From positions 1 to 30,523 of the IMG/VR virus record IMGVR_UViG_3300007735_000594: a stretch of 30,523 nucleotides of DNA. One strand, 5' to 3'. How positions within the stretch are numbered: position 1 is the first letter of the stretch; each line of letters begins with the position of its first letter. The notes below the pieces were generated by a model. It saw only the letters and a program-made list of their open reading frames with translations, was not told the DNA's origin and did not search any database. The translations under genes and the position numbers were made by a program. This DNA comes from a virus. Of the stretch, positions 13,714 to 29,811 are shown in pieces.

Positions 13714-15261
13714 TCAGTAGTACGCCACCCTACGGTGCGCAAAATAATCGCGGTCCCGGTAGTCACTTGGCAAACTGATGAACCCACCCTGTCTAAACCG
13801 TGTCAGTGCCATGGATGTGCAGTCAACCAAGTCATCATTTGACCCATATGGAAACGCCACGCACTGTTCAATAAGTTCCTCAGCCCATCTACGCCCTTGT
13901 GGATACCAGACCATCCCACTGCGCAGTATATCGGCCACAGCGTTCAAACGGGCAACTTTATCGCCTGTGCCTCTGTGGGGAGTGAATTCTTGGACCGGTA
14001 TCCCAATACGCCTGAGTTCTTGATACAACTGCGTCCCGGCGGATTTCTTTTCCACAATGAACGAGTCCGGTTCCCAATCTTTCCATTCCCTGAACGCCAG
14101 CTCTTTTAACTCTGGAAACTCCACCCGCACGTTGATCGCGTTGAGCAGTATGAGGTGTGACGCACCCCCAGTGAGGTTGTCATCAACAAACACTCCCCAC
14201 GTCGTCAGCGCCGTATAGTCCGCCCGGTTATGTTTCTCCGCTGCCGCATCCAGCGTCATGATCACGTACTCGCACGACGGGGCATCCTCTGATGTCCAGG
14301 GCACCCACCACTCGCGCTTGATGATTGCAGCTTCTTCCGAGGTGGGGGACTGCATGTACTGCGCGTTCCACTGGAATGACGGCATTGACGCCTTGGTACG
14401 CTCCAGTGCATCCAGATCAAACTTCTCAGGCCATAGAGCTTTTTGTCCAATGGCGGTTTCCAATATGGCCGGAAACTCAAAGACTTCGTACTGGTCAGCC
14501 TTGGGGTTGTTAGCAGCGTCCCTGACCAAGTGGCCGATCAAGTCATCCTGATGCCAGCGGGTGTGCACCACCGCCACACGGCCTTGAGACATCAGACGGG
14601 TTCGTGCTCCAAACATGAACCACTGGTAGGCTTTCTCCAGTGCATCGAAGTTCCCTGCGAGCAGATCCTGCTCATCATGCGGGTCGTCAATCAGCAACAG
14701 ATCAGCACCGCGACCCGCCAAAGCAGAACCAACGCCAGTGGCAAAGTACTCACCACCACGATTAGTAGACCAACGTCCGGCGCTTTTGGAGTCTGCTGCA
14801 AGGGACACCCCCGGAAAGATGGATTGGTACTTGGAGTCAGCGATGATGTTACGCACTTTGCGCCCAAAATCAACCGCCAAATCTGTGGTGTTTGACACCA
14901 TCAGCACCTTTTTATCAGGGAATTTACCTAAAAACCACGCCGGAAATAGCGTCGAAACAAGGTGAGATTTGCCATGCCGAGGGGGTACGGACACCGCAAT
15001 ACGGTCTTTGTTGCCGTAAGCAATCTCAACCAGCAGTTCTGCCAGCCTTCTGTGGTGCGCTGCAACAATATACGTGGGGTCGATGTGTTTGCAGAACTCA
15101 ATCAGGTCGTTTTGGCAGCGTTTTGACTGTGCTCTGCGCTCCAATTCTTCTGAAATCGCCAGAATCTGCACCTGTTCTTCAGGCGAAAACGACGAAATGT
15201 TGTCGTGCAGGAGTTTTAGCTCATGCGCAGTCAGGGTATTTAGACCAAGGGCGTCTATCAC
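13714..15261 (-). CDS. Terminase large subunit
   Basis: 515 residues from GTG at 15261, which overlaps the small-subunit stop as GTGA. ATPase domain: Walker A VPPRHGKS (92-99), Walker B LLLIDDPHD (188-196), and a coupling segment VVHTRWHQDDLIG (231-243). Nuclease domain of RNase H type: MTLDAAA with D338, FIVEKK with E404, and GSNDDLVD with D476/D477/D480, so the expected acidic triad is present. It pumps DNA into the procapsid through the portal and cuts concatemers. Length and motif order match full-length terminases, with no truncation. The subfamily, and so the packaging mode (cos, pac or other), cannot be set from these motifs. Confidence 0.95.
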   Translation of the reverse strand: MIDALGLNTLTAHELKLLHDNISSFSPEEQVQILAISEELERRAQSKRCQNDLIEFCKHIDPTYIVAAHHRRLAELLVEIAYGNKDRIAVSVPPRHGKSHLVSTLFPAWFLGKFPDKKVLMVSNTTDLAVDFGRKVRNIIADSKYQSIFPGVSLAADSKSAGRWSTNRGGEYFATGVGSALAGRGADLLLIDDPHDEQDLLAGNFDALEKAYQWFMFGARTRLMSQGRVAVVHTRWHQDDLIGHLVRDAANNPKADQYEVFEFPAILETAIGQKALWPEKFDLDALERTKASMPSFQWNAQYMQSPTSEEAAIIKREWWVPWTSEDAPSCEYVIMTLDAAAEKHNRADYTALTTWGVFVDDNLTGGASHLILLNAINVRVEFPELKELAFREWKDWEPDSFIVEKKSAGTQLYQELRRIGIPVQEFTPHRGTGDKVARLNAVADILRSGMVWYPQGRRWAEELIEQCVAFPYGSNDDLVDCTSMALTRFRQGGFISLPSDYRDRDYFAHRRVAYY

Positions 15262-15857
15262 AGGTCGCCTAGAGCGTTATCCACATCAATTTTGACCGGA
15301 TCGACCACGGGCATGGGGTTAATTTGTACATCCTCGGCAGTATCCGTACCCATCAGGCGACGCAGCTTGTCTTTGAGCGTGTTTTCAAGCTCCAACGTGG
15401 AACGATTGTTGATTGTGACTTCCGTACGCTCGCTAAACAGACCCACATCGCTGATTTTGCCCAGCATTTCCAGGGCTTTGATGCGGATTCGCGCATCCAT
15501 GTTCTCTGATTCCAGGATCAGCTTGTTTGTGACGTAGTTTCTGATGCGCTTGGCATCTTGTACCACAGCCATATCGAACGCAGTGAGCACCGCATTGACC
15601 TCGATTGCACCTGAAGGGGTCTGAATCAGGGGATCAATTCGCGCAGCAGCGACTTCCTTACCCGCTGCCATGTCCGTGACAAGTGTTTTTAGGCTGAACT
15701 CAAAGTCTTTTGAGTTGGCATCTTCGCCATCATAGCCTTCGTCTTGCAAAAGCTTGGCTGCATTGCAAGCTGCGCGTGCTTTATCACGGATATTTCCGTA
15801 GGGTTCTTGCAGCCCCACGGTGATTGGCACGAATTCTTCTGCGTGACAGGTAATCAT
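15258..15857 (-). CDS. Putative terminase small subunit
   Basis: 199 residues directly before and overlapping the large subunit. The N-terminus FVPITVGLQEPYGNIRDKAR is followed by helices (ARAACNAAKLLQDEGYDGED, VLTAFDMAVVQDAKRIRNYV) and a central IRIKALEMLGKISDVGLFSE segment, then a disordered Pro/Val-rich tail. The KALE-LGKI-DVGLFSERTEV phrase is a feature I associate with DNA-recognition subunits of phage terminases. A classical HTH is not obvious. The ATG at 15857 has no Shine-Dalgarno site and lies about 10 bases from a predicted -10 box, so the mRNA may be leaderless. Confidence 0.75.
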   Translation of the reverse strand: MITCHAEEFVPITVGLQEPYGNIRDKARAACNAAKLLQDEGYDGEDANSKDFEFSLKTLVTDMAAGKEVAAARIDPLIQTPSGAIEVNAVLTAFDMAVVQDAKRIRNYVTNKLILESENMDARIRIKALEMLGKISDVGLFSERTEVTINNRSTLELENTLKDKLRRLMGTDTAEDVQINPMPVVDPVKIDVDNALGDL

Positions 15858-15866
15858 TGCGGGTGC

Positions 15867-15895
15867 AGCATATACAAAAATAAAAGCGGGTGCAA
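15867..15895 (-). promoter_or_regulatory. Leftward sigma70-like promoter for the packaging/head operon
   Basis: On the minus strand TTGCAC (15895-15890) and TATGCT (15872-15867) are 17 bases apart. Matches to TTGACA and TATAAT are four of six each. Transcription would begin two to four bases before the ATG at 15857. The 9-mer GCGGGTGCA occurs once across the -35 side and once between the -10 and the start codon, with a 27 base period, so a repressor or activator could bind both. Confidence 0.5.
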
Positions 15896-16062
15896 GTACC
15901 TGGGACTCCTACCCGGGGGGTGTTCCTATATTTGGGGGTATTTAGCTTGGGTAAAAATGCGTAGGGGGGTATGTCCTTTATTTTTGCAGCGTCGCTAAGT
16001 TTTTGGTACTTGGGGGAGTGGAATACAGCGACAGCGGCGCGGCGGAGTCCCAAACCATAGCC

Positions 16063-16084
16063 GGGGGGTGGGGGATGGGTGGGG
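16063..16084 (+). repeat. G-quadruplex motif
   Basis: Four G-tracts of 6, 5, 3 and 4 bases with loops of 1, 2 and 1 base. Such tight loops give very stable parallel quadruplexes. It ends one base before the first operator-like dyad. Confidence 0.7.
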
Positions 16085-16098
16085 TTATCCGGAGATAA
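16085..16098. promoter_or_regulatory. Operator-like dyad 1 (TTATC-CGGA-GATAA)
   Basis: Five-base arms TTATC/GATAA around four bases. Other copies are at 16894, 16977 and 18385. All four are intergenic, which suggests a common DNA-binding protein. Confidence 0.5.
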
Positions 16099-16174
16099 AC
16101 ACAAGAAACACCATCACTCCAATAGTGTAGGGCATTTGATCCTACGTTTCATCAATCAAAACCGGAGAGTTAAA

Positions 16175-16747
16175 ATGTCGAAACAATCTGTTATCGTTTC
16201 TTTGTTGTCCAATGTGGTCGATGCCGCGAGAGTGTACGCTAGTGCAGGGACGGGCCTAACCCGTGCCGCCATGCTCGCCTTGCAAGGTGGAGCCCATGTG
16301 GAAGACGTTATCGAGGCGGCCCGTGGGGGATTCGAAGAGGTGGGCGAGGTTATCCCTCGGGCTTTCCCTTCGAACCTGCGCAGGGTTGCAAAAGCGGACC
16401 CTAAATTTTTGCAAGCGATTCTAGATTCCGATCGTTCACTGAACAATGAATTGTTATCAGACCTTGCGGTTCCAACCCAAGGCGCAAAAGGCGGCCGCCC
16501 GAGCAAGGCGGAGAGTGTCGATAAGGCCACTGCGACACCTAGTGCACCGGCCGCGAATGATGCGCAAGCTAACCCAAGGGAGACCGCGATCGCAGCGCTG
16601 CAAAATATTATGGCGATTCGCACCAAACTTGGGGTCCCCATGGGTTCACAATTCACCGAATTGGAAGATCACTTGTCCGCCATGCTTGCGATCCTTCGCT
16701 CTATCAAGGTAGCGCAAACCCCCGGACCCGATGCAGTGAAGGCTTGA
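16175..16747 (+). CDS. Orphan 190-residue protein, first gene of the right arm
   Basis: I chose ATG at 16175 because CGGAGAG lies five bases upstream. An upstream in-frame ATG at 16079 would run through the dyad and hairpins. The product has an N-terminal helical domain (SVIVSLLSNVVDAARVYASA), a middle helical part (VEDVIEAARGGFEEVGEVIP, AFPSNLRRVAKADPKFLQAI), a short GGRPSK segment reminiscent of an AT-hook core at about residue 106, an Ala/Pro linker and a C-terminal helix (PMGSQFTELEDHLSAMLAIL). It stands alone between dyad 1 and its own terminator. I do not recognise the family. Position in the control region suggests a regulator or early factor, without direct proof. Confidence 0.7.
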   Translation: MSKQSVIVSLLSNVVDAARVYASAGTGLTRAAMLALQGGAHVEDVIEAARGGFEEVGEVIPRAFPSNLRRVAKADPKFLQAILDSDRSLNNELLSDLAVPTQGAKGGRPSKAESVDKATATPSAPAANDAQANPRETAIAALQNIMAIRTKLGVPMGSQFTELEDHLSAMLAILRSIKVAQTPGPDAVKA

Positions 16748-16765
16748 CCTTCCAACCCTAACCCA

Positions 16766-16790
16766 GCCCCGCTTCGGCGGGGCTTTTTTT
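16766..16790 (+). terminator. Strong rho-independent terminator
   Basis: Seven-pair stem GCCCCGC/GCGGGGC with a TTCG tetraloop followed by seven T. It ends the 16175 gene transcript about 20 bases after its stop. Confidence 0.95.
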
Positions 16791-16893
16791 CGTCCCTGCT
16801 TTTTGAGGCAGGGACCGGGTGTCAAGAGCACGCGAGGCTAGCACGCCAGCACGCGGGCGCGACGGCGCAGGCCACCACGCGAGCCAGACCGAG

Positions 16894-16907
16894 TTATCTC
16901 CAGATAA
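16894..16907. promoter_or_regulatory. Operator-like dyad 2 (TTATC-TCCA-GATAA)
   Basis: The best copy: the flanks extend it to AGTTATCT-CC-AGATAACT, eight-base perfect arms around CC. Confidence 0.55.
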
Positions 16908-16976
16908 CTGACACGCAATAGCGTGCGTGGATAGGCGCAGGGCATTATTCTGCGCGGGACCGGGTGTCGGGGGGAG

Positions 16977-16990
16977 TTATCCCCAGATAA
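16977..16990. promoter_or_regulatory. Operator-like dyad 3 (TTATC-CCCA-GATAA)
   Basis: Lies 83 bases after dyad 2, about eight helical turns, on the same side of the GTTCCA repeats. Shares AG upstream with dyad 2. Confidence 0.5.
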
Positions 16991-17016
16991 TTTAATTTTT
17001 GTGTCTTTTTTGGTCT

Positions 17017-17041
17017 GTTCCAAATGTTCCAAAGAGTTCCA
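17017..17041 (+). repeat. Three GTTCCA direct repeats (iteron-like)
   Basis: GTTCCA at 17017, 17026 and 17036, spaced by 9 and 10 bases, so on nearly the same face of the helix. Inverted GGAAC copies occur at 17049 and further right. Confidence 0.45.
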
Positions 17042-17293
17042 GAAGCACGGAACAAAAAAAGCACGCTAAGTTGTTGATTTGCAAGCTCAGAAATTTGCAG
17101 TGCTCCTTCTGTTCTCTTGTTCCTATTTATTTTTATTTTTATATGACTGGCTACAAACGACTTTATAACTTGTGTCTTTTTTGATTCGGGGCTAGAATTC
17201 CGACACAATGTATAATCCTGCTCGTAGCCGCACCTTCTCTACCGGAACGTAATAGAACTTCACTCACCCCCAAACCCAAAGGAGGCTAACACG

Positions 17294-17392
17294 TTGTCAC
17301 TCAATGCAATCGACTCTGTCCCCATTTTTACTTTTCGTTCTCTATTAACAAAACACGCCGGAACATCCGGAACAAAGGACCTCCAACCATGA
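17294..17392 (+). CDS. Possible 32-residue leader peptide, TTG start
   Basis: AGGAGG at 17280-17285 sits eight bases before TTG at 17294. The frame reads (M)SLNAIDSVPIFTFRSLLTKH and ends GTSGTKDLQP at TGA 17390-17392, which overlaps the ATG of the next gene as ATGA. A strong ribosome-binding site with no other start nearby and the ATGA overlap argue for a coupled mini-gene. The composition is not informative, and it may only tune translation of the HTH protein. Confidence 0.35.
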   Translation: MSLNAIDSVPIFTFRSLLTKHAGTSGTKDLQP

Positions 17393-18306
17393 AATTCTGC
17401 ACACCCGAGTATCTCGTTCTCAGGGTTTACCTTGATGAGCAACTCCGCCCACGTTTTCGAGCCAACTCGCTAAACAACCCCGAAATACACTGCAAACCTG
17501 TGCCCGTCTTTATCGGACCCGAAGACTACGTGATGTTCCTGGGCAAATTCATGGCGAAGTGGGCGTGGTATAAGGACTTCCTTTTATTCACTCGGCACGT
17601 GTCTCCAAGTGCCCATCAATCCAAAATCCCACTCGATTGGCCACTCAATTTCGGCCCCCAAATCCGCAGTGTTGCTGCTGCCCGAGACATGATCACCACA
17701 GGCCATATGCAGGCACGTCGTGATATGCGAGCCGAGGCGATGGGCGATCGGTTCGCTGCCTTGAACAAAAAGGGCTGGGCCCACACTGCCATAATTACCC
17801 GCATCGCCGCTGAGTTCGACATCACCCGCATCACTGTACGCAAGATGTTAGCTGAGATGGGACTGATTGAGCCACCGCCACCCCCAGCGCCGAAAGAAGA
17901 AGTTGCCATTAACAGACTGCGACGGGCAGACCCTCGATACGATACCTTGAGGCGTGTGTGTAACGTAGCCAGGAGTAAGCTGCACAGTCGCAATGGGGCG
18001 TTCAGAAGTTCGTTCAAGATCACTGATCTGTACGTCAACGATGAGCTGCCCACCACGTGCCCTGTGTTGGGGATACCCCTGAGCTACGAAAACTTTAAGT
18101 CTTTATCCGCCGTGCGCATCGGGCGTAAAGATACGAGCAAAGCAGCCACCCCGAGGAACGTGTTGCTCATGTCCCGCCTCGCACAGCGCATGATCGAGGG
18201 CACGGGAGACAGGCGTCGATTGATCAATGCCCTTGAGACTCAGGAGATGCGGCAGCGATGGATGGACTGGTACACCACCCACCACACGGAATGGCGGAGA
18301 GAATGA
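17389..18306 (+). CDS. HTH protein with degenerate HNH-like C-terminus, possible regulator
   Basis: 305 residues. Residues 131-158 (AHTAIITRIAAEFDITRITV then RKMLAEMGL) form a good helix-turn-helix. A Pro-rich linker at 161-168 follows. Residues 224-272 (CPVLGIPLSYENFKSLSAVR, ATPRNVLLMSRLAQRMIEG) follow the C-terminal plan of phage HNH proteins of the CPVLGIPL...SLDRI...GNV-V-S type, but the usual Asp and His positions are changed (S-AVRI for S-DRI). This suggests binding without cutting. The N-terminal 110 residues are unrecognised. Dyads lie on both sides of the gene, and the strong rightward promoter begins 16 bases after its stop, so it is a candidate repressor. The role is inferred. Confidence 0.65.
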   Translation: MKFCTPEYLVLRVYLDEQLRPRFRANSLNNPEIHCKPVPVFIGPEDYVMFLGKFMAKWAWYKDFLLFTRHVSPSAHQSKIPLDWPLNFGPQIRSVAAARDMITTGHMQARRDMRAEAMGDRFAALNKKGWAHTAIITRIAAEFDITRITVRKMLAEMGLIEPPPPPAPKEEVAINRLRRADPRYDTLRRVCNVARSKLHSRNGAFRSSFKITDLYVNDELPTTCPVLGIPLSYENFKSLSAVRIGRKDTSKAATPRNVLLMSRLAQRMIEGTGDRRRLINALETQEMRQRWMDWYTTHHTEWRRE

Positions 18307-18322
18307 CCGACGCTTTAGGGGG

Positions 18323-18351
18323 TTGACAAACCCTACGTTATATGGCATAAT
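18323..18351 (+). promoter_or_regulatory. Strong sigma70 promoter for the right arm
   Basis: TTGACA at 18323-18328, 17 bases, CATAAT at 18346-18351: a perfect -35 and five of six at -10. It reads into the structured leader and the 18764-24891 gene block. Operator-like dyad 4 begins 34 bases after the -10, where a bound protein could block elongation. Confidence 0.85.
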
Positions 18352-18384
18352 AGAGTCTGGTTGGGATTTATTTATCGACGGGGT

Positions 18385-18398
18385 TTATCTCCAGATAA
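18385..18398. promoter_or_regulatory. Operator-like dyad 4 (TTATC-TCCA-GATAA)
   Basis: Same 14-mer as dyad 2, placed just downstream of the rightward promoter and nine bases before boxA. Confidence 0.55.
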
Positions 18399-18406
18399 CT
18401 CAGCCA

Positions 18407-18418
18407 CTCTTTAACAAT
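18407..18418 (+). promoter_or_regulatory. boxA antitermination element with following hairpin
   Basis: CTCTTTAACAAT matches the boxA of proteobacterial rRNA leaders (consensus core CTCTTTAACA), which binds NusB-S10 and lets RNA polymerase pass terminators. Twelve bases later an eight-pair hairpin with a seven-base loop (18430-18452) takes the place of boxB in a lambda-type nut site. Located about 56 bases after the -10 box. Confidence 0.7.
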
Positions 18419-18763
18419 TCATCATCAGCGCAGCCGGTTAGCACCCGGCTGCCATAGCGTAGCTATTCAGTACGCTGTCAGAACTAGGTGTGCGTCTAAG
18501 CGTACACAAGCGCAGGGAGTGATCCCTGGGTACGACGTTCGGCTGCCTTACCACTTCAACGTAGCAGACCTGTGTGTCTTGCGTAAGTCGTCCCTGTGGT
18601 GGGTGGAATGTGACAGTCACGGCGGGGCCACCGCTGGGGCGGAACATCTGACAGTGTGAGTAATAGCTTCCCGCGAAAGAGTCGGTAATACCCGCAGGGG
18701 ATACGGTCCCCTGCCTTAAGGCTAGTGCTTTAAGGCAGCATGGTGCTGCGAAGGAGAGATGAA

Positions 18764-18943
18764 ATGGACGAAGGACAAGAGTACCAATGGAACATTGAAC
18801 TTGTCAGTATGCGTGACTGCGTGAAGTTTGCACTGAATAACCTAGACAGTCTTAGCAAGCGTAACCACGTGCAAACCTTGCTTGAGGCAGTGCATCGGCG
18901 GCTCAATGAATTGTGTGAAGCAACCCGAGGAGAGAAAGAATGA
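18764..18943 (+). CDS. 59-residue helical protein, first gene after the leader
   Basis: ATG at 18764 with AAGGAG seven bases upstream; the frame-extending ATG at 18740 lies inside a hairpin before the ribosome-binding site and is rejected. The product is one amphipathic helical unit: NIELVSMRDCVKFALNNLDS then RNHVQTLLEAVHRRLNELCE. Unknown family. As the first gene behind a long regulated leader it may act early in infection. Its stop overlaps a nine-codon frame (18940-18969) described in the findings. Confidence 0.65.
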   Translation: MDEGQEYQWNIELVSMRDCVKFALNNLDSLSKRNHVQTLLEAVHRRLNELCEATRGEKE

Positions 18944-18964
18944 AGACCAAAACCGCAGAGTTAA

Positions 18965-18978
18965 TTTAACCAGTTAAA
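18965..18978 (+). repeat. Intercistronic dyad copy 1 (TTTAACCAGTTAAA)
   Basis: Six-base arms TTTAAC/GTTAAA around CA, followed by CAGGAGAG, the ribosome-binding site of the 404-residue gene. Further copies are at 21283 and 22508. Confidence 0.7.
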
Positions 18979-18991
18979 CAGGAGAGTTAAT

Positions 18992-20206
18992 ATGAATACC
19001 GCAGAGTCTACGAACCGTGTTTTTGAACTGGCTTTTATCATCTCGAAATACCGTTCATGGTATGCACGAGAGCGTTCCCAAGCCAAGCTGCATCCGTTCG
19101 TAATCCGTGCGCTCGACGCAGGTCATGTACCTGCTGACTGGCACCAGTTGACCCTTGAGTATCCCCACATCCCAGACGATGGGGCTCGTGCCAAGGTAGC
19201 GTATACCCGTGACGAGCGTTCGGGCGAGGCAGATCGGCAGACCGTGACCACACTGGGCAAATACTTAACGCGACATTTTCCCGGCATGCCTGACCATAAG
19301 ATCCGTGACCTCGTAGCCCTGGCTGCGCCTGAGTCGTGCAAACTTGTGCACACAATGGCCGAGATGCTTTTCCATCTGCTGCGTGGCCCGGGCTCGTGCA
19401 TGGCCAAGGAGTGGCGCACCCCCGAGGAGCACCCGTACAACGTCTACAACCCGGCGCGTGGTTGGCACATGGCGGTGCGTGTGGATGCTGACGACACAGT
19501 GGGCCGTGCCCTGTGCATGGACGACGGCGAGGCTAAGTTCTTCGTTCGCTCGTACAAGAAGGGCGATGGGTACAGCTACACCGACGAGACGCTGGAGGCG
19601 TGGCTCGTGGACCAGGGCTACGAGAAGCGCGACGACTGGGAAGGCTGCACGCTGGACTTCATCGGCACCGGCTGGAGCGACGACTTCATCGCTCCGTATC
19701 TCGACGGCTCAGTGCAGACTGTGGACATAAAGTACAGCTCGGGTGAACGGTACTTGTGCATCACACCGTACGGTGAGTACGAGTGCAACAACACCGACGG
19801 CACGGTCAGCACAGGCGAGGAGTGCGAGGACTGCGAATCGCGGTTCGGTGAGGGCGATGGGTACTGGGTCGGCTACCACGAGGATCGACAGGTCTGCGCG
19901 AACTGCTGCGACAACCACTACCGGTATGCGTATGGTCGCAACGGCAGACAGTATTACGTCCACGAAGACGATGTGGTCTACATCGGCTCGCAAGATGAGT
20001 ACTACCACCAGGATTATCTGGAAGATAACGAGATCGTCGAGCTTGCCAATGGTGACTACGAACACCAGAGCGAGGCATGGCAGTGCGCTGACTCAGGCGA
20101 CTGGTACAGCAACGATGAAGAGTACGTCGAGATCGACGGCGAAACCTATCACCCCGACAGTGATACGGCCAAGGAACATCTGGAAGAACAATCGGAGGAA
20201 GTATGA
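18992..20206 (+). CDS. 404-residue acidic zinc-ribbon protein, unknown function
   Basis: The N-terminal 135 residues are helical (RVFELAFIISKYRSWYARER, LGKYLTRHFPGMPDHKIRDL, LVHTMAEMLFHLLRG). A middle domain contains PYNVYNPARGWHMAVRVDAD, RALCMDDGEAKFFVRSYKKG and LEAWLVDQGYEKRDDWEGC, perhaps binding a ligand or protein. A zinc ribbon follows (C278/C281 and C302/C305). The C-terminal 90 residues are acidic and tyrosine-rich, with loosely repeated units such as QDEYYHQDYLEDNEIVELAN and DEEYVEIDGETYHPD. No enzyme motif is recognised. It opens the block that holds the peptidase and ATPase-VWA genes, and its stop overlaps the next ATG. The acidic end could mimic DNA, which is only a guess. Confidence 0.75.
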   Translation: MNTAESTNRVFELAFIISKYRSWYARERSQAKLHPFVIRALDAGHVPADWHQLTLEYPHIPDDGARAKVAYTRDERSGEADRQTVTTLGKYLTRHFPGMPDHKIRDLVALAAPESCKLVHTMAEMLFHLLRGPGSCMAKEWRTPEEHPYNVYNPARGWHMAVRVDADDTVGRALCMDDGEAKFFVRSYKKGDGYSYTDETLEAWLVDQGYEKRDDWEGCTLDFIGTGWSDDFIAPYLDGSVQTVDIKYSSGERYLCITPYGEYECNNTDGTVSTGEECEDCESRFGEGDGYWVGYHEDRQVCANCCDNHYRYAYGRNGRQYYVHEDDVVYIGSQDEYYHQDYLEDNEIVELANGDYEHQSEAWQCADSGDWYSNDEEYVEIDGETYHPDSDTAKEHLEEQSEEV

Positions 20207-21281
20207 ACACACCAACACAACCAAACTCTACGCTGCACTTGATCGTGCATTGACCCTGGCTCGCCCACATGGTGGCGCAGGTGTATGGGAACTCATGATG
20301 TGGCTGACTGACAACCTGCCCGAGCGATGCCAACCCCATATCTTCCTCGACAGTGCGGACAACCTGCACATCGACAATCGCAAAGCCCAGACCAACCGCA
20401 CGCTGTTCGTCGCCCACCTGGACTCGGTGCACAGACAAGACGGTGCCAACCCTGTGGCCAAGACTGCACAAACGTGGAGCGCAGCCGGTGGTTCGTGTCT
20501 CGGTGCAGATGACGGCGCAGGTGTGGCCGTGCTGTTTCACATGCTCTGGTCTGATGTGCCGGGTTACTACATCTTCACCCAGGGTGAGGAGTGCGGCGGC
20601 ATCGGTGCCAAGCACCTCGCTGACCATGACAATGAGATGCTCATGGAGTTTGATCGTGCCATCGCGTTCGATCGCAAGGGTATGACTGATGTGATCACGC
20701 ACCAAGGCTGGGGTCGGTGCTGCTCCGATACGTTCGCCGCTGCGCTGGCGACTGCGCTCAATGATGTACACCCTGACTTCCTGCTGCTATCACCTGACGA
20801 TACTGGTATTTACACTGACACCGCAGAGTTCGTTGACTTCATCCCCGAGTGCACCAACATCTCGGTCGGCTACGCTGGAGCGCATGGTGCAGGTGAATCG
20901 CTTGACGTGCAGTACCTGGAGCGGCTGGCTGATGCTGCCGTGCGTATCGACTGGGATGCGCTGCCCACCGAGCGTGACCCCATGGTGCAGGAGAGTACGT
21001 ATGAAGCGTGGGGTGAGTGGCACCCCACCCAGCGAGGTGAGTACACACTAGAGGATGAGTTGCTCGATGCTCTGAACGATGCGATGCGCGGAGCCACGGG
21101 TCCACTGGTGCGCTTGCTTGCCAAGCACATCTACCCACAGGACGTGGAGTTTGCCAAGAAGATGATCAACCGCCATGCCCTGACCGACGAGGTGCTGGAG
21201 CATGTAGAAGACAAGCTATGGGGCGGTGAACCTGCCCTGTATTTGCTTGATGAACTGTGCGACACAGCACAGATGCACTGA
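20204..21281 (+). CDS. M20/M28-like zinc peptidase, frameshifted at its start
   Basis: The protein frame (from 20220 to the stop at 21281) reads KLYAALDRALTLARPHGGAG onward. It shows the metal-site phrases of co-catalytic zinc peptidases: VAHLDSVH, CLGADDGAGVAVL, FTQGEECGGIGAKHL and AIAFDRKG, then SVGYAGAHGAGESLD. The family cleaves peptides or amides with two zinc ions. The only well-placed start, ATG at 20204 with GGAGGA before it and ATGA overlap, is in another frame and stops after 16 codons. Removing one AC from the ACACACC run at 20208 would restore MNTNTTKLYAALDRA. Other options are initiation at TTG 20250, programmed shifting, or sequence error. The last 80 residues are helical and unrecognised. 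Confidence 0.75.
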
Positions 21282-21282
21282 G

Positions 21283-21296
21283 TTTAACCAGTTAAA
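21283..21296 (+). repeat. Intercistronic dyad copy 2 (TTTAACCAGTTAAA)
   Basis: Starts two bases after the peptidase stop and is followed by CAAGGAGAG, the ribosome-binding site of the 78-residue gene. Confidence 0.7.
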
Positions 21297-21308
21297 CAAG
21301 GAGAGAGA

Positions 21309-21545
21309 ATGAAAGTCAACATCGAAGTCACCGACACGTTCGGACATGAGGCCAATTACTCATGGGTTAAACGACACGTCATTGACGTGATTGATTGCCT
21401 GTCTAAATACGCTATTGTCCGTAGGGTAAAGCGTGAGATCGGATGGTCAGGCCATCGTTGTATAACCATAGACAATAGTGATATAATTGAGCTTCGCCCT
21501 TACGGGGTTAACCAAGTTTGTTTCATTACATTCCAAGGAGAGTAA
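21309..21545 (+). CDS. 78-residue conserved-looking phage protein
   Basis: GGAGAG lies six bases before the ATG. The product reads KVNIEVTDTFGHEANYSWVK, VRRVKREIGWSGHRCITIDN and IIELRPYGVNQVCFITFQGE. The EANYSWVKR and IELRPYG--QVCFI phrases match a short phage family I have seen in many unrelated phages, without known function. It is probably an alpha-beta fold binding a partner. It sits between the peptidase and the DUF3150-like gene and uses the same dyad cassette, so it is probably co-regulated with them. Confidence 0.7.
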   Translation: MKVNIEVTDTFGHEANYSWVKRHVIDVIDCLSKYAIVRRVKREIGWSGHRCITIDNSDIIELRPYGVNQVCFITFQGE

Positions 21546-21547
21546 TC

Positions 21548-22507
21548 ATGAATAAGAACGCAGCTATAGCGAACCTTCCATCCATCGCATCAGCATCCAT
21601 GCTGGGCTACCTGAATATCGGCGTGTGGGAGGCACGCAAGAAAGACAAGAAGACTGAGGCCGAGGTCGGCGCTGCCAAGGGCGCACGCTCCAAGCGTGCT
21701 GCATCCGTGCACAAGCATCTGTTCAGTGAGTCCCCTGCACTGGAGGCGATCAAGTCTTTGCGTGGTGAGGTGCGCCACTGGTACAACAACGTCACGCTGC
21801 CATGGGATGACAACGGCGGACGCATCATCACAACTTCTTCGTACATGGAGATCATGGCTGACGCTGCCAAGTATGAGAAACGCTTCAACGATCTGGTGCA
21901 GATATTCTGCAACGTGTACACCACCGAGGTCAGTAAGCAAGCGTTTGAGAACGGTGCGTTCTTTGACCGCAGCGAGTATCCACCCGAGAGTCAAGTCAAG
22001 GACAAGTTCTATTTCAACCTTGTGGTCTCGCCCATCCCCATGGCTGGCGACTTCCGCCTAGACATTGCCACCGAAGCATTGCAGGAATTGCAGACCCGGC
22101 ACGAGGGCATCGTCGAGGCGCGTGTGGCTGCTGCCCTGGCCAGTACGTGGGACCGCGTGAAGCAGCAGGTTGAGTGGGTGCGTGAGCGTATGGATGCTGT
22201 ACTCAAGCATGACCCCGATGCCACCGAAGAGATCAAGGAGGTAGACGACGAAGGCAACGTGCTCAAGGTCACCATCAAGAAGGCACGCCGTCCCAAGCTG
22301 CACGAGTCTATGCTGGACCAGGGGCTTGAGTTGTGTGGCCTGTTGCGCGATCTCAATATCACCAACGACCCCAAGCTAGAGGAGGCACGACAGATGCTGG
22401 AGCGCACGCTCACTCGCATCGACATTGATTCACTGAAAGAAAGCAAAGCGTTGCAAGAGTCCACCCGCAGTGCAATGCAGAACATCATCGACAAGTTCGC
22501 ACTGTAA
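21548..22507 (+). CDS. DUF3150-like protein, partner of the ATPase-VWA pair
   Basis: 319 residues from ATG at 21548 (CAAGGAGAG eight bases upstream; an earlier in-frame ATG at 21518 lies in the previous gene). Seen: LGYLNIGVWEARKKDKKTEA, LRGEVRHWYNNVTLPWDDNG, IITTSSYMEIMADAAKYEKR, DRSEYPPESQVKDKFYFNLV, SPIPMAGDFRLDIATEALQE, then helices with LLRDLNITNDPKLEEARQML. The W-AR--D, TLPW-D-G, YP----I--KF and SP-P-A-DFR order is that of DUF3150 proteins, as I recall them, usually encoded beside CobS-like ATPases in phages and prophages. The function of that family is unproven. Direct succession by the ATPase and VWA genes supports a three-part complex. Confidence 0.8.
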   Translation: MNKNAAIANLPSIASASMLGYLNIGVWEARKKDKKTEAEVGAAKGARSKRAASVHKHLFSESPALEAIKSLRGEVRHWYNNVTLPWDDNGGRIITTSSYMEIMADAAKYEKRFNDLVQIFCNVYTTEVSKQAFENGAFFDRSEYPPESQVKDKFYFNLVVSPIPMAGDFRLDIATEALQELQTRHEGIVEARVAAALASTWDRVKQQVEWVRERMDAVLKHDPDATEEIKEVDDEGNVLKVTIKKARRPKLHESMLDQGLELCGLLRDLNITNDPKLEEARQMLERTLTRIDIDSLKESKALQESTRSAMQNIIDKFAL

Positions 22508-22521
22508 TTTAACCAGTTAAA
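22508..22521 (+). repeat. Intercistronic dyad copy 3 (TTTAACCAGTTAAA)
   Basis: Directly after the DUF3150-like stop and followed by CAAGGAGAG before the ATPase ATG. Confidence 0.7.
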
Positions 22522-22535
22522 CAAGGAGAGATACC

Positions 22536-23606
22536 ATGGACTTACGTCTATCAATCAACCAGATCGCCAAGCTCATCTCTGTCAACGGGATGGACAAGAC
22601 CTACATCGTCGAGGGACCGATGGGTTCAGGCAAGTCCAGCATCCCGCAGGTTGTCCGCACACTGGTGGGTGACAAGTACAACTACATCACAGTGGACTGC
22701 ACGCAGCTTGACGTGGGTGACATTCAGGTTCCTGACACGGATCGTGAGCAGATGGTCACACGGTTTTTGCCTAACGTGTTGTTCGTAGGTGACGGCAGCA
22801 AGCCCATGTTCATCCTGCTCGATGAGATCGGCAAGGCACCACGCCCCGTGCAGAACGCCCTGCTGCCCATCATGCTTGAGCATCGTGTAGGTATGAAGCC
22901 CCTGCCTGATGGCAGCATCGTCATGGGTGCGACCAACCTAGGCGCTGAAGGTGTGGGCGATTTGTTCCAACCCCATGCACGCAACCGCGTGTCGTTCCTC
23001 AAGATGCGCTTCGCAACCAACACCGAGTGGATCGAGTGGGCGCTGGAGCATGGCGTACACCATGCGATGCTGGCGTGGGCGAACGAGACCCCGTCGCTGT
23101 TCCAATCGTTCGAGGACGTAGAGGACCCGGCTGATAACCCGGTGATCTTCCACCCCAAGGAGCAGCGCAAGTCGTTTGTGACCCCTCGCTCGTTGTTCCT
23201 CTCATCGCTTGAGTTACGTGAAGATCGGCGCAGTGCAGTGGACGATAACGCAGTGACCCTGGCAGCGATTGCTGGCAACATCGGACCTCGTGCTGCGCTT
23301 GACCTGATGGCGTTCGTTGACTTGGCTGACAAGCTCCCTGCCTGGGACACGATCGTCAACGCACCTGACGTTGCGCCTGTGCCTAAGAACAACGCAGCAG
23401 CCATGATGATGACGGTGCATCGTGCCATCACCCGCGTCACACCCGAGACGCTCATCCCTGTGCTGGAGTACATCGAGCGTTTGCCCAAGGAGATGCAGTG
23501 CATCTTCGCCCGTGGCGTGCTCAAGATCCCGGCCAAGGCAGCCAAGTGTGCCAGCATCAAGCAGTTCACCGATTGGGTGAATGCCAATCATTGGATCATG
23601 AAGTGA
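22536..23606 (+). CDS. MoxR/CobS-like AAA+ ATPase
   Basis: 356 residues. Walker A GPMGSGKS (27-34), Walker B MFILLDEIGK (91-100, D96/E97), sensor-1 type N134 in MGATN, and a possible arginine finger in PHARNRVSF (147-155). The phrase LLDEIGKAPRPVQNALLPIM followed by MLEHRVGMKPLPDGSIVMGA is typical of MoxR/CbbQ/CobS ATPases, which use ATP to remodel a partner bound through a VWA protein. The C-terminal lid region is helical (NIGPRAALDLMAFVDLADKL). The gene next to it encodes exactly such a VWA protein. In bacteria such pairs insert metals or remodel enzymes and complexes. The target in this phage is unknown. Confidence 0.88.
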   Translation: MDLRLSINQIAKLISVNGMDKTYIVEGPMGSGKSSIPQVVRTLVGDKYNYITVDCTQLDVGDIQVPDTDREQMVTRFLPNVLFVGDGSKPMFILLDEIGKAPRPVQNALLPIMLEHRVGMKPLPDGSIVMGATNLGAEGVGDLFQPHARNRVSFLKMRFATNTEWIEWALEHGVHHAMLAWANETPSLFQSFEDVEDPADNPVIFHPKEQRKSFVTPRSLFLSSLELREDRRSAVDDNAVTLAAIAGNIGPRAALDLMAFVDLADKLPAWDTIVNAPDVAPVPKNNAAAMMMTVHRAITRVTPETLIPVLEYIERLPKEMQCIFARGVLKIPAKAAKCASIKQFTDWVNANHWIMK

Positions 23607-23613
23607 GGCCAGC

Positions 23614-24891
23614 ATGTTTCAACCAACCACAATGACAGCAGAAGAGCGCATCCTGCGCCAACGTACCAAGATCATGCAGGAGGATCGTTGCCTGGGTGTA
23701 GCCAGCGTGCTCATGATCGGTGAGTGGCGTGTGGTGTCTGACATACCTACGGCTGCGACCAACGGGCGTGACGTGATGTTTGGCCGTGCGTTCGTGGACA
23801 GCATCGATGATGCAACGCTGCGCTTCGTGATCTTGCATGAGTACTTCCATCTGATGTTCATGCACATGACGATGTGGAAGCATCTGTTCGACGAGGATGC
23901 TCAGACCGCCAACACTGCCACCGATATCATCATCAACAACCTGCTCGACGAGACGCTGGTACAAGGCGGCGACGCCTTCATCACGATCTGGCCCCACGCT
24001 GCGCTCGATCATCAGTACGATGGCATGGATACGGGCGAGGTATATCGCAGGCTCAAGCAGCAAGGTGCAGCCAACAAGCCCAACCCAGGCAACGGTCAGC
24101 CTGGACAAGGCAAGCCCGGCCCCGGTCAACCCGGTGCTGGCAAAGGTAACGGTGCTCCCGTTCGTAGCGCATCAGGTGGCCAAGCGCAGGAGTTCGACGA
24201 GCACGACACGAGTGGCGGCCCTGCCAAGATGAGCGATGATGAGGTCAAGCAGTTACATGCTCAGATCGACACGGCGATTCGCCAAGGTGCCATCATGGCT
24301 GGCAAGGTTGCAGGCAGCGCCAACCGCATGCTCGATTCGCTGATGGAGGTTAGCGTTGATTGGCAAGAGGTGTTGCAAGACTTCGTGAAGACGCACGCAT
24401 CAGGCAACGATCTGTCTACGTGGCGCAGGTTGTCCAGGCGCTGGATGAGCAAGGGTATCAAGATGCCATCCCGCTACACCGAGGCAGCCAAGCGCATCAC
24501 CATCGGCGTCGATACATCAGGCAGCATAGGCGACACACAACTTCAGCGTGCGTTGTCTGAGATCAAGGGCGCGTGCGATACCGTTCGACCTGAGTGCGTC
24601 GATGTGATTTACTGGGACTATCAAGTTGCAGGACACGAGACGTATGAGGCCGATGCTGTGGAGCAGTTGACCCAAGTGACCAAGCCCAAGGGTGGTGGCG
24701 GCACCCGCGTGCGCTCGATGCTGGACTACATGAACTCCCGAGACATCAAGCCTGACTGCATCATCATCTTCACGGATGGTTACGTTGAGCATGACTGGGG
24801 CGGCGACGGATGGTCTGCGCCTGTGTTGTGGTGCGTCAGCACCAAGGGTATCGTAGCCCCGAGCGGCAAGACTCTTTATGTCCCCATTTAA
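23614..24891 (+). CDS. Metallopeptidase-like plus VWA protein (DUF2201/CobT-like)
   Basis: 425 residues. The N-terminal domain has HEYFH (75-79), an HExxH zinc-protease motif, in the ATLRFVILHEYFHLMFMH helix. D104 in TATDIIIN could be a further ligand. A Gly/Pro/Gln-rich linker spans about 155-205. The C-terminal VWA-like domain has the metal-ion-dependent adhesion site: DTSGS (300-304), T364 in GGGGTRV, and D388 in IIFTDGY. This is the layout of DUF2201-type proteins that partner MoxR/CobS ATPases. The eight base gap after the ATPase gene supports one complex. All key residues are intact, so peptidase activity is possible but not certain. Confidence 0.88.
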   Translation: MFQPTTMTAEERILRQRTKIMQEDRCLGVASVLMIGEWRVVSDIPTAATNGRDVMFGRAFVDSIDDATLRFVILHEYFHLMFMHMTMWKHLFDEDAQTANTATDIIINNLLDETLVQGGDAFITIWPHAALDHQYDGMDTGEVYRRLKQQGAANKPNPGNGQPGQGKPGPGQPGAGKGNGAPVRSASGGQAQEFDEHDTSGGPAKMSDDEVKQLHAQIDTAIRQGAIMAGKVAGSANRMLDSLMEVSVDWQEVLQDFVKTHASGNDLSTWRRLSRRWMSKGIKMPSRYTEAAKRITIGVDTSGSIGDTQLQRALSEIKGACDTVRPECVDVIYWDYQVAGHETYEADAVEQLTQVTKPKGGGGTRVRSMLDYMNSRDIKPDCIIIFTDGYVEHDWGGDGWSAPVLWCVSTKGIVAPSGKTLYVPI

Positions 24892-24909
24892 TTCTTTCGG
24901 TGTCTCTTT

Positions 24910-24922
24910 GACACCCGGTCCC
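24910..24922 (-). repeat. Third, inverted copy of 13-mer GGGACCGGGTGTC
   Basis: Reads GACACCCGGTCCC on the plus strand, between the VWA gene and the next gene. Its first six bases also pair with GGTGTC at 24899-24904 as a short hairpin. Confidence 0.5.
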
Positions 24923-24936
24923 TAGAAAGGAACAGT

Positions 24937-25281
24937 ATGCTTGGTGAACGCGACCCAGACACGACTTACCGCGTGGCTTTGTATGAAGACTCCGAGGGGC
25001 AGTGGTGTGAGATTACGGTGTACCCGCCCTATTACGGAGGTAACAAAGCCAGAGCTATTCATAGACTCAAATCCGCCAAATTTGAGTTACCCAAGTGGAT
25101 GCGCGAGGGCATGCACATTTTGGATGTAGCCGGTTATGGCGTACAGATTCCTGGTATAGGAACTAAGATGCTAGGTACCTACTGGTTTGAGACAGGTAAA
25201 GAAACCCTAGAAGAAAAGTTGGAATTGCTTGGCGCTACTGCAAGTGCTATATTGAAGCGTCTTGACACCAACGTAATATAG
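24937..25281 (+). CDS. 114-residue hypothetical protein
   Basis: GAAAGGA precedes the ATG at 24937. The product is alpha-beta, with YRVALYEDSEGQWCEITVYP near the front, RAIHRLKSAKFELPKWMREG in the middle, and helix ETLEEKLELLGATASAILKR at the end. No catalytic motif, zinc site or membrane span is seen and the family is not recognised. It opens the second block of right-arm genes. The inverted 13-mer repeat sits just before it, which may mark a break from the ATPase-VWA block. Confidence 0.6.
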   Translation: MLGERDPDTTYRVALYEDSEGQWCEITVYPPYYGGNKARAIHRLKSAKFELPKWMREGMHILDVAGYGVQIPGIGTKMLGTYWFETGKETLEEKLELLGATASAILKRLDTNVI

Positions 25282-25291
25282 GAGTAGTTAC

Positions 25292-25543
25292 ATGGCATTT
25301 GTAGTAGAGTCTGGCATCCCGCCAGTGGTCAACCGCAAGGGGCGTAAACCCACACCGTTTCCGTTGATTGAAATGGATGTAGGTGACTCCTTCTTAATTG
25401 CGTGTGACCCAACCAATAAAAAAGAAACCGAGAATTGGCGCAGGAAGTTCATGGTGGCCAAGAAGGCTTTCCTTGAGAAGTACGAAGCCAAGTTTCAAAC
25501 TGCAACCGTGTCCGACGGCATCCGCGTCTGGCGCACTGAGTAA
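25292..25543 (+). CDS. Small phage protein (possible DUF7303 type)
   Basis: 83 residues with TAGGAGTA before the ATG. The pattern RKGRKPTPFPLIEMDVGDSF, then a loop, then a basic helix (RRKFMVAKKAFLEKYEAKFQ) and DGIRVWRTE looks like a family of short phage proteins with PF--M-VGDSF and a terminal RVWR-E. I recall the name DUF7303 but cannot check it. Function unknown. Confidence 0.65.
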   Translation: MAFVVESGIPPVVNRKGRKPTPFPLIEMDVGDSFLIACDPTNKKETENWRRKFMVAKKAFLEKYEAKFQTATVSDGIRVWRTE

Positions 25544-25610
25544 AGAAGGAGGTAGTCGCATCACTCTTTACGCTCTGCAACAGCAGGGCGTTTTTACTGG
25601 AGAAACGATT

Positions 25611-25841
25611 TTGTCAGCCAACGAAACGCAAGTGGGTGGGACCCACTACAAACAATTCAACTACGAAACGTGGGATGTCATCCACGACTGGGGCCTGGGT
25701 TACTTCGATGGCAATGCCGTCAAGTACTTGAGCCGTTGGAAACACAAAGGAGGAATAAATGACTTACGCAAAGCAAGACACTACATCGACAAACTCATTG
25801 AACTCGAAACTGGGCAAGGCAATCCCCAAGCCAAAGGCTAA
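25611..25841 (+). CDS. DUF3310 (SaV-like) protein
   Basis: 76 residues from TTG at 25611, with GGAG eight bases upstream. The text SANETQVGGTHYKQFNYETW, HDWGLGYFDGNAVKYLSRWK, KGGINDLRKARHYIDKLIEL is the full DUF3310 core, so this is a secure family call. Members are widespread in phages and have been linked to nucleotide metabolism, but their role is not settled. The next gene starts inside it at 25759 in another frame. A stronger AAGGAGG lies further upstream, seven bases before an in-frame ATC at 25560, so a longer product cannot be excluded. Confidence 0.8.
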   Translation: MSANETQVGGTHYKQFNYETWDVIHDWGLGYFDGNAVKYLSRWKHKGGINDLRKARHYIDKLIELETGQGNPQAKG

Positions 25842-26133
25842 GACCAAGCGCAAGGCCAAGCCGCCCACCCTGGCAGCGCGTATCCGCGTGCTGCGAGAGC
25901 AGGGGTTCAAAGCCGGTCAGATCGCTGCGATGATTGGCTGCGACGTTCAGTGTGTGTACAACCAGAACTACCACGACAAAAAGATGCAAGCGGCCAAATC
26001 CGTTAAGCAGAAGGCCGCGTTGGAGGAGCACGTGGAGAACTTGAAGCAAGCGCAGAGCGTTGTCTTCGCTGGGCCAGAACCCAAGCTGTCATTTAAACAA
26101 CGACTGCGCGTCCTGTTCACGGGGGTTGTATGA
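25759..26133 (+). CDS. HTH-containing basic protein
   Basis: 124 residues. AAAGGAGG lies just before the ATG at 25759, which fixes the start even though it overlaps the DUF3310 gene by 83 bases. The N-terminal 38 residues are basic and disordered (KPKAKTKRKAKPP). Residues 39-75 contain LAARIRVLREQGFKAGQIAA then MIGCDVQCVYNQNYHDKK, a helix-turn-helix of the kind found in small recruitment or transposase-like DNA binders. The end is helical and basic. Perhaps a small DNA-binding regulator. Confidence 0.7.
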   Translation: MTYAKQDTTSTNSLNSKLGKAIPKPKAKTKRKAKPPTLAARIRVLREQGFKAGQIAAMIGCDVQCVYNQNYHDKKMQAAKSVKQKAALEEHVENLKQAQSVVFAGPEPKLSFKQRLRVLFTGVV

Positions 26134-26342
26134 GCACTAAGCCACTTCCATTTAACACCGGCAAGGTTCTCATTGGCTCACGCTATGAGCCACCGAGGAG
26201 GTACGAGATGTCACGAGACATGGAGACCTTGCAGCGCAAGCTGCTGGAGGAGCGGCTCGGGCGGCGCGCAACCGCTGCGTCCGCGATTGTCCTGTACATC
26301 ACGGCGTTGTTTTGCTTGGCCTTGTGGTGGGTGATGAGATGA
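26130..26342 (+). CDS. Small membrane protein
   Basis: 70 residues with ATG overlapping the upstream stop as ATGA. The N-terminal 45 residues are charged (MSRDMETLQRKLLEERLGRR). Residues 47-68 (ATAASAIVLYITALFCLALW then W) form one transmembrane span with a short basic end. Topology suggests a cytoplasmic helix anchored at the C-terminus. Unknown role, perhaps in host membrane takeover. Confidence 0.6.
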   Translation: MSTKPLPFNTGKVLIGSRYEPPRRYEMSRDMETLQRKLLEERLGRRATAASAIVLYITALFCLALWWVMR

Positions 26343-26797
26343 ACTTGCCGAGCAGCCCCCAAGAATACTGGGATGCCTGTCTTATCAAAGCGTGGCGGAT
26401 GGACAGGCGAGTTTCAGGTGCCACGCTCATGTTCAAAGCCATCACAGGTAAAGAGTTTTTTGAGTGCGAGCCGAAACTAAAGCGCATTCCCCATTACGGG
26501 CTACCTTGGACAATCAGGGTACGTGTTTTTGTTGCGAGTTTTTTACCCAAGATCAGTGAAAGACTTTGGGATCAACCGCCAGAAAAAGACGTTGAACTGC
26601 TACGCAAACTTGCCACAAGCAACTATGACACGCTTAGAACCCAGACCCCCGAAGATGTAGAACTAAAAACAGCGCGAGTACAAGTACACACCAATAAAAA
26701 ACGCAACAACCTGATATATCAAAAAATCATGAATCGTAACCATGACACTGACTGGTCGGTAACAAAAGGCCCAACAAAGAAAGGCAAAAGGGGATGA
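26339..26797 (+). CDS. 152-residue hypothetical protein
   Basis: ATG at 26339 overlaps the stop of the membrane-protein gene as ATGA; the longer in-frame start at 26312 is not needed. N-terminal SPQEYWDACLIKAWRMDRRV then FKAITGKEFFECEPKLKRIP, a central basic/aromatic stretch, and a strongly basic tail (VHTNKKRNNLIYQKIMNRNH, KGPTKKGKRG). The basic end suggests nucleic acid binding. The stretch is AT-richer than its neighbours. No domain recognised. Confidence 0.6.
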   Translation: MNLPSSPQEYWDACLIKAWRMDRRVSGATLMFKAITGKEFFECEPKLKRIPHYGLPWTIRVRVFVASFLPKISERLWDQPPEKDVELLRKLATSNYDTLRTQTPEDVELKTARVQVHTNKKRNNLIYQKIMNRNHDTDWSVTKGPTKKGKRG

Positions 26798-27006
26798 AAC
26801 TCACACCTTGGTTCGGAGCAACAACGAAGCCTGTTCGTCCCGGCGTGTATCAGCGCCGTCATCGTTCGTTCGGGTTCTACATCTTTGCGAAGTGGAACGG
26901 CAGCAAGTGGATGCGTGGGTCTTCGTCTGTTGATGAAGCTGCTGAGGAGACCATTGCGTCCATCAGTCAGATGACTAATTTTTACTGGAGGGGGATTCAT
27001 GGCTAA
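26794..27006 (+). CDS. 70-residue small phage protein
   Basis: ATGA overlap with the upstream stop. Sequence LTPWFGATTKPVRPGVYQRR, FYIFAKWNGSKWMRGSSSVD, AAEETIASISQMTNFYWRGI. The KPVRPGVYQR---F--F--WNG--W phrase and terminal WRG are typical of a short beta-fold phage family seen in several genomes, without known function. It overlaps the next gene by eight bases. Confidence 0.65.
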   Translation: MKLTPWFGATTKPVRPGVYQRRHRSFGFYIFAKWNGSKWMRGSSSVDEAAEETIASISQMTNFYWRGIHG

Positions 27007-27241
27007 GTTACCGTACACATTCACAATCTGCCCCGATGGGCCAGAGCCTAAGAAGTTCACTGCAAGCTGCCCGGAGATGGGTCAGTTGCTCAAGGACAGT
27101 CCCAATGGTGATCTGACGATTGATGACCGTCGCCGTGGGATGTGGGAGACATGGAGTGGAAGGCCCGTGCAGATGGCTCCGCTGGAAGAACGCATCGCCG
27201 AGGCGATTGACCAAGCAAGGCGGGAGAGGGGAGAGAAATGA
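26999..27241 (+). CDS. 80-residue hypothetical protein
   Basis: Starts inside the end of the previous gene, with GGAGGGG before the ATG. YTFTICPDGPEPKKFTASCP then LKDSPNGDLTIDDRRRGMWE, and a helical end APLEERIAEAIDQARRERGE. The charged last ten residues partly encode the ribosome-binding site of the next gene (GGGAGAG). Family not recognised. Confidence 0.6.
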   Translation: MAKLPYTFTICPDGPEPKKFTASCPEMGQLLKDSPNGDLTIDDRRRGMWETWSGRPVQMAPLEERIAEAIDQARRERGEK

Positions 27242-27516
27242 CCCGCGATGAAGTTCTTGAGTTGGCAAAACAAGCTGACTTGTGGATGAGCAGCGACGAG
27301 CGAATCTTGGCGGTGGAGCGATTTGCCGAGCTTGTGATTACTGCCGAGCGTGAAGCATGTGCGAAGGTGTGTGAGGAGAAGCAGCAATACGCAATGCCAA
27401 TTCCATGCCCAGATGGGATTGATGGGTGTTCGGTAATGCACTGTGTTCCTGCTCAACGGGAAAAGACAGGTCAGGAGTGCGCAGAAGCTATCAGAGCAAG
27501 GGGGAACAAGACATGA
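27238..27516 (+). CDS. 92-residue early protein (EREACAKVCEE type)
   Basis: ATGA overlap start. Helical N-terminus (DEVLELAKQADLWMSSDERI), the phrase ITAEREACAKVCEEKQQYAM, a Cys/His-containing loop (CPDGIDGCSVMHC) and the end AEAIRARGNK. The EREACAKVC---...CA-AIRARG pattern recurs in many phage small proteins of unknown role. The cysteines could bind a metal. It is coupled to the next gene by ATGA overlap. Confidence 0.65.
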   Translation: MTRDEVLELAKQADLWMSSDERILAVERFAELVITAEREACAKVCEEKQQYAMPIPCPDGIDGCSVMHCVPAQREKTGQECAEAIRARGNKT

Positions 27517-27976: not shown

Positions 27977-27979
27977 CAC

Positions 27980-29040: not shown

Positions 29041-29064
29041 GACATATCAACCAAAGGAGAACAC

Positions 29065-29781: not shown

Positions 29782-29811
29782 TCTTGAATACAGGAAACGT
29801 ACGGAGCAATC

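Follow-up and report, generated by a model that had tools for sequence, protein, structure and literature searches.

Outside ribosomal RNA, control by Nus factors acting at boxA has been associated chiefly with lambda-like phages that have an N protein. The lambda nut site lies in an early phage leader and consists of a boxA followed by a hairpin. Phage T7, which later uses its own polymerase, carries a TTGACA promoter (A3) followed after 70 nt by GCTCTTTAACAATC and then by gene 0.3. The E. coli rrn leader is made of a P2 promoter, a boxB-like hairpin (followed by TGCTCTTTAACAATTTATCA in rrnB), boxA and boxC, with long untranslated structured RNA 3' of boxA. On rRNA, the Nus complex guides folding of the nascent transcript (PMC6614801, PMC5725501). 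An untranslated stretch of 567 nt in an E. coli 5' UTR leads to Rho termination, and an rRNA boxA relieves this termination in a way that needs NusB and SuhB (PMC4807359). In the suhB mRNA leader, a boxA of the same consensus is separated from the ribosome site by 6 nt and is repressing (PMC5725501). Large, modular, covarying phage RNAs such as GOLLD and ROOL are also known.

The locus described here shares features with each of these systems. It lies in a stretch of DNA from an environmental tailed phage, 30.5 kb in length (30,523 nucleotides; hereafter the window). As in rrn, a consensus promoter, a predicted stem, boxA and a long untranslated structured RNA follow one another; unlike in rrn, the RNA downstream is not ribosomal, the leader contains an operator-like palindrome, and protein genes follow. 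The promoter-boxA spacing is as in T7, which however has only about 110 nt between boxA and the start codon and hence no long structured leader. Like lambda nut, the boxA precedes a hairpin in an early phage leader, but there is no boxB-type loop and no recognised N, the boxA is of the rRNA type, and the elements stand in rrn order. As in suhB, the boxA belongs to an mRNA leader, here at a distance of some 340 nt from the ribosome site. The RNA resembles GOLLD and ROOL in being large, modular and covarying; unlike these, it matches no Rfam family and leads an early mRNA with boxA. The family of structured RNAs is new, and so is its combination with a boxA of the rRNA type.

Gene context, promoter and palindromes

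Structural genes (terminase, capsid) occupy the minus strand in the left part of the window, and small genes and genes of replication type the plus strand in its right part. The leader region is flanked by an endonuclease-like gene (17389-18306) on one side and by the first gene of the right arm on the other (Table 1). Behind it, between 18992 and 21278, a 404-amino-acid protein and an M28-type peptidase are encoded; distant relatives of the two, likewise arranged, occur in the early region of Autographiviridae such as Klebsiella and Vibrio phages. A search for the T7-type RNA polymerase family gave no match anywhere, the controls being likewise matchless.

Only five sigma-70-like sites were found in the interval 15000-30523, against an expected 10.0 +/- 3.2 sites scoring at least 9/12, and the promoter, a strong one, ranks first among them. 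The sequence TTGACAtaa-N-TATAAT is found in the matching position of 15 aligned leaders, and a start motif common to the relatives (GTCGGTGGGAGATCA in the window) lies just after the -10 box. Further on, the leader contains the palindrome TTATCTCCAGATAA. Its recurrence at 16894, 16977 and 16085 marks it as a dispersed operator-like site, not a chance dyad; relatives have different palindromes (GTTAAACGCGTTTAAC) at the leader position and elsewhere in their genomes. Lying just downstream of the expected transcription start, the palindrome is probably an operator.

Other repeats were noticed in the window. A second palindrome, TTTAACCAGTTAAA, occurs in three exact copies (18965-18978, 21283-21296 and 22508-22521), each immediately ahead of an early gene's ribosome site, and the nearest relative retains it (L002, positions 2815, 5125 and 6973); the arrangement resembles the start-associated repeats or stoperators of mycobacteriophages. 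A perfect inverted pair of 16 bases, AGGGACCGGGTGTCAA and TTGACACCCGGTCCCT, is found at 16810-16825 and 24908-24923; both sites are intergenic, and 8 kb separate them. The sequence gcacgcgaggcta, about 14 bases long, is present as tandem copies in L002 (691-745) and as a single copy near position 16830 of the window.

Table 1. Positions of the elements of the early leader and of associated features (window coordinates unless a contig is named)
Feature	Position	Strand	Remarks
Palindrome TTATCTCCAGATAA, fourth copy	16085-16098	-	One mismatch
Palindrome TTATCTCCAGATAA, second copy	16894-16907		Exact
Palindrome TTATCTCCAGATAA, third copy	16977-16990		One mismatch; L002 has GTTTAACGCGTTAAAC instead
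Sigma-70-type promoter, TTGACA-17-CATAAT with extended TG	18323-18351	+	11/12; transcription start expected near 18358
5'-terminal RNA stem (18358-18365 with 18399-18406)	18358-18406	+	Predicted; dyad inside; closes directly 5' of boxA
Operator-like palindrome TTATCTCCAGATAA	18385-18398		Also repeated in L002
rRNA-type boxA CTCTTTAACAAT	18407-18418	+	Exact
Hairpin A, eight perfect pairs, loop UUAGCAC	18430-18452	+	Equivalents covary in relatives
Middle of structured leader	18453-18693	+	GCGTACACAA common to relatives; rest mosaic
3' triple-hairpin module (P1 18694-18714, P2 18715-18734, P3 18735-18749)	18694-18749	+	Covariation; covariance model R1
Ribosome binding site AAGGAG	18751-18756	+
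First early gene	18764-18943	+	59 aa; without family; first gene varies among relatives
Intrinsic-terminator-like hairpin, nine pairs and T run	25570-25591	+	Between two right-arm genes
Promoter-boxA-tRNA stretches	L106:10126-14602, L112:4187-12487, L130:776-9977, L129:1094-1585

The nearest relative is 97.8% identical to the window across promoter and leader. The match stops abruptly a few bases 5' of the promoter, and identity in the endonuclease gene there falls to 72%; on the other side, the next two genes are 91-92% and the genes beyond them 97-98% identical. That the leader is better conserved than genes next to it is thus no clean argument in this comparison, as the later genes also reach 97-98%. 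The wider and more informative comparison set consists of phages with a related terminase, nearly all of them 63-80% identical. A DNA search of the phage GenBank collection returned no relative of the leader region. Neither relatives of the terminase nor the 3' motif of the leader were found among 84,980 species genomes, which thus pointed to no host and no prophage form.

The boxA sequence and its conservation

In the window, CTCTTTAACAAT is the only match with at most two mismatches, 1.6 being expected by chance. Compared with the published boxA consensus, GYTCTTTAANA (PMC5725501), it agrees in 10 of 11 positions, with A for the first G; most relatives agree in 11 of 11. Together with the next bases (CTCTTTAACAATTCATCA, 18407-18424), it shows one difference in 18 from the E. 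coli rrnB leader. The rrnB boxC, TGTGTGGGC, has no counterpart at 18419-18460, and the phage site is therefore classed only as carrying an rRNA-type boxA and not as a full rrn-type element. Between the expected transcription start and boxA, a stem is predicted in the window and in the relatives, weakly so in two of them (L092 and L059).

Forty loci with a related terminase were examined for a boxA defined by at least 11 of 14 bases and a position 30-92 nt after a TTGACA promoter. Promoter and boxA follow one another on the strand of the early genes in 27 of the 40, and in 19 of the 22 loci that have at least 6.3 kb on the early-gene side; the opposite strand, the reversed sequence and Markov sequence, 548 kb in all, contained none. 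Eleven of 17 whole records have a single boxA and none has more (one match in reversed controls). In the alignment, column conservation is 78-100% over the 14 bases of boxA and mostly 30-50%, with a few columns up to 70%, outside it; the members of this alignment had been selected by boxA itself, so that the fair test lies in members found by another criterion. Four leaders (L010, L015, L036 and L066) were identified by the covariance model of the 3' leader alone, without the boxA criterion, and all four have a boxA of 12-13 out of 14 bases at the expected place. Some relatives have a weakened boxA (CTCTTGAACAAG in L017, CTCTTTAGCGGC in L098, and also L043 and L067).

A preliminary description of this DNA, made from the sequence of the window, had located promoter, dyad, boxA and eight-pair hairpin exactly where we find them and had assigned the boxA to the rRNA type, in line with the above comparisons. 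It interpreted the ensemble as a nut-like leader. The rRNA-type boxA and the role as early leader of the right arm are retained here; the analogy to nut in the lambda sense is not, there being no boxB-like loop, no recognised N and an order of elements as in rrn. Its further proposal, that antiterminated polymerase transcribes the whole right arm, goes beyond the present evidence. A nut site of the lambda type would consist of boxA and a boxB hairpin bound by an N-like phage protein, and would make the polymerase ignore intrinsic and Rho-dependent terminators. The hairpin does begin 11 nt after boxA, and the right arm contains a terminator-like hairpin with a T run at 25570-25591, contrary to the preliminary statement that no terminator was visible to the end of the window. 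However, eight pairs with a 7-nt loop are unlike boxB, which has a short stem and a GNRA-like pentaloop 8-10 nt after boxA, and both the loops (UUAGCAC, UUCG, GGGA and others) and the stem length differ among relatives. We also agree with the preliminary description in recognising no N-like protein among the early ORFs: arginine-rich stretches are confined to out-of-frame ORFs and short ORFs far downstream (for example, a zinc-ribbon-like one at 29997-30224), and no PHROG antiterminator was detected among the early ORFs scanned, although a short, diverged N is easily missed by such a scan. Taken together, we consider a lambda-type site very improbable.

The untranslated leader RNA

The untranslated leader is about 406 nt long, ends at the first early gene and includes about 350 nt of folded RNA after boxA. 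This RNA is the most notable part of the leader and lies mostly outside the interval covered by the preliminary description. Up to 18763, the leader has stop codons in all three frames, and there is no ribosome site before 18759/18764. An ATG in the P3 loop was considered as the start of a leader peptide and rejected: it is out of frame, it is followed at once by a stop in L016, and it is missing in L010 and L015. Predicted folding of the stretch 18358-18760 gave a z score of -5.27, with none of 100 shuffled sequences folding as well. Taken alone, the hairpin at 18430-18452 stands out only moderately from shuffled sequence (z -2.6; equalled by 2 of 200 shuffles).

Comparison of fifteen leaders reveals a shared layout: start motif, 5' stem, optional palindrome and boxA, behind which two hairpins, a middle part of mosaic make-up and finally a constant 3' end follow. 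Modules of the middle part are gained and lost between phages. The constant end consists of GCAGGGGG...CCCCCTGC, a second helix and GCAGCA...TGCTGC; the ribosome site comes next. When the 5' domain of 10 sequences was aligned with MAFFT and analysed with RNAalifold, 11 of 15 pairs were found to carry pairing-preserving changes on both sides; the covariation score is 0.52 versus 0.23 in shuffles, none of 500 shuffles being as high, and slid partners score at most 0.15. In the 3' module, whose loops were trimmed by hand and whose arms were fixed by the adjoining invariant CTGC and GCAG, 10 of 21 pairs show compensatory change (none of 500 shuffles did as well, and slid versions scored much lower). 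In its middle helix, P2, all eight pairs have changes on both sides. Since P1 and P3 share the arms GCAG/CTGC, every member could equally well adopt an alternative pairing in which P2 is longer. Judging from compensatory changes in excess of both shuffled and slid controls, the leader is a conserved RNA secondary structure. The outcome is the one for which the preliminary description had proposed an alignment of related leaders: boxA is kept while its neighbours diverge, and the downstream hairpin maintains its pairing through compensatory changes.

With Rfam 15 at gathering thresholds, no family matched the window or 18 relatives and other phage loci, and a comparison of the leader with Rfam at E values up to 10 yielded nothing above chance. 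The first gene after the leader varies among phages that carry the same leader, which indicates that the RNA does not go with any single gene; a gene-specific riboswitch was discarded on this ground. An elaborate conserved RNA that heads the operon whichever gene comes first, and hence is not gene-specific, might itself be a protein-independent antiterminator similar to the put RNA of phage HK022, or some other RNA that modifies the polymerase, boxA being an accessory; the two alternative pairings of the 3' module would suit such an activity. We regard this as improbable in light of the gain and loss of middle modules between phages and because Rfam, at gathering thresholds, relates the leader to no known RNA.

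Possible functions of the leader and boxA sites in other phages

An untranslated, folded RNA of about 350 nt before the first gene reproduces the situation in which rRNA boxA was found to counter Rho (PMC4807359), and we therefore read the locus as an rRNA-type boxA leader served by host factors. By this analogy, it seems reasonably probable that the region comprises the promoter and 5' leader of the early (right-arm) operon, and that boxA works with host factors alone, recruiting NusB-S10 for the untranslated structured leader. From the elements and their order, the conservation of boxA, the covariation of the helices and the absence of reading frames, all directly observed, we infer NusB-S10 binding, protection from Rho and help in folding as follows. 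Host RNA polymerase would start near 18358. In the nascent RNA, the 5' stem would form and leave boxA single-stranded, with folding resuming directly 3' of it. The host proteins NusB and S10 (NusE) would bind boxA and travel with the polymerase, probably accompanied by SuhB and NusA, as is the case on rRNA. Rho would thereby be kept from stopping the polymerase across the approximately 350 nt of untranslated leader, and the leader would be held, and perhaps folded, as it emerges from the polymerase. Ribosomes would enter only at 18764. The presence of boxA in front of a compensatorily conserved RNA suggests that the phage borrows the host's ribosomal RNA transcription machinery.

Counting against the host-factor reading are the weakened boxA of some relatives, the lack of a recognisable boxC and an arrangement seen in another phage contig, L113. 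There (6123-6240), a promoter is followed by two hairpins, a perfect boxA, a ribosome site and, 27 nt on from boxA, a start codon. This layout recalls the suhB leader more than rRNA, and repression is as likely an explanation at that site. It is conceivable that in the window, too, the Nus complex recruited by boxA mainly folds the RNA, with the leader looped to the polymerase, or delays ribosome entry at the first gene, protection from Rho being secondary. The heavily structured, covarying leader and the L113 arrangement are compatible with this alternative, as is the work on Nus factors themselves, which on rRNA act chiefly in folding and not in Rho protection and at the suhB boxA repress translation (PMC5725501; PMC6614801). 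Against it, boxA lies at least about 340 nt from the start codon in this family of leaders, whereas suhB repression has been studied at short distance, and Rho classically acts on long untranslated RNA. On balance, we consider a main role in folding or translation control rather unlikely.

Viral contigs were also scanned for a promoter followed by boxA. This gave 27 stretches, several of which are chance matches inside AT-rich genes. In four unrelated phage contigs, the pair lies directly 5' of tRNA genes on the same strand: 19 tRNAs in L106, 23 in L112, 20 in L130 and 2 in L129. Other leaders, about 540-680 nt long before the first likely frame, are found in other phage groups (L114, L128 and L121). 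These tRNA-array and long-leader cases fit a tentative rule by which boxA is placed before long untranslated RNA. Three of the four tRNA contigs share a further motif, AATTCCAATTAGGTGCTTCGCGACCTGTCGGC, 3' of boxA. Promoter, hairpin and boxA are seen in L114 (10710-11450), L128 (5785-6570) and L121 (2493-2578), which possibly have structured leaders of other sequence.

A bolder version of these ideas can be put forward only tentatively, as possible but rather unlikely: that the leader represents a class of large, structured RNA new among phages which, made at the head of the early operon under an rRNA-type boxA, itself acts on the transcription or translation machinery of the host (for example by diverting Nus factors or modifying the polymerase), and that it is a general habit of phages to head long untranslated transcripts, tRNA arrays included, with an rRNA boxA.

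The group of environmental phages described here thus has a boxA of the rRNA form, with no recognisable N, before a structured untranslated RNA that is absent from family libraries. T7 and the phage tRNA arrays make a simple general rule testable, namely that boxA is found where long untranslated RNA must be transcribed. If the boxA of the environmental group is active, these phages would use the rRNA transcription complex of the host directly for their first transcript.
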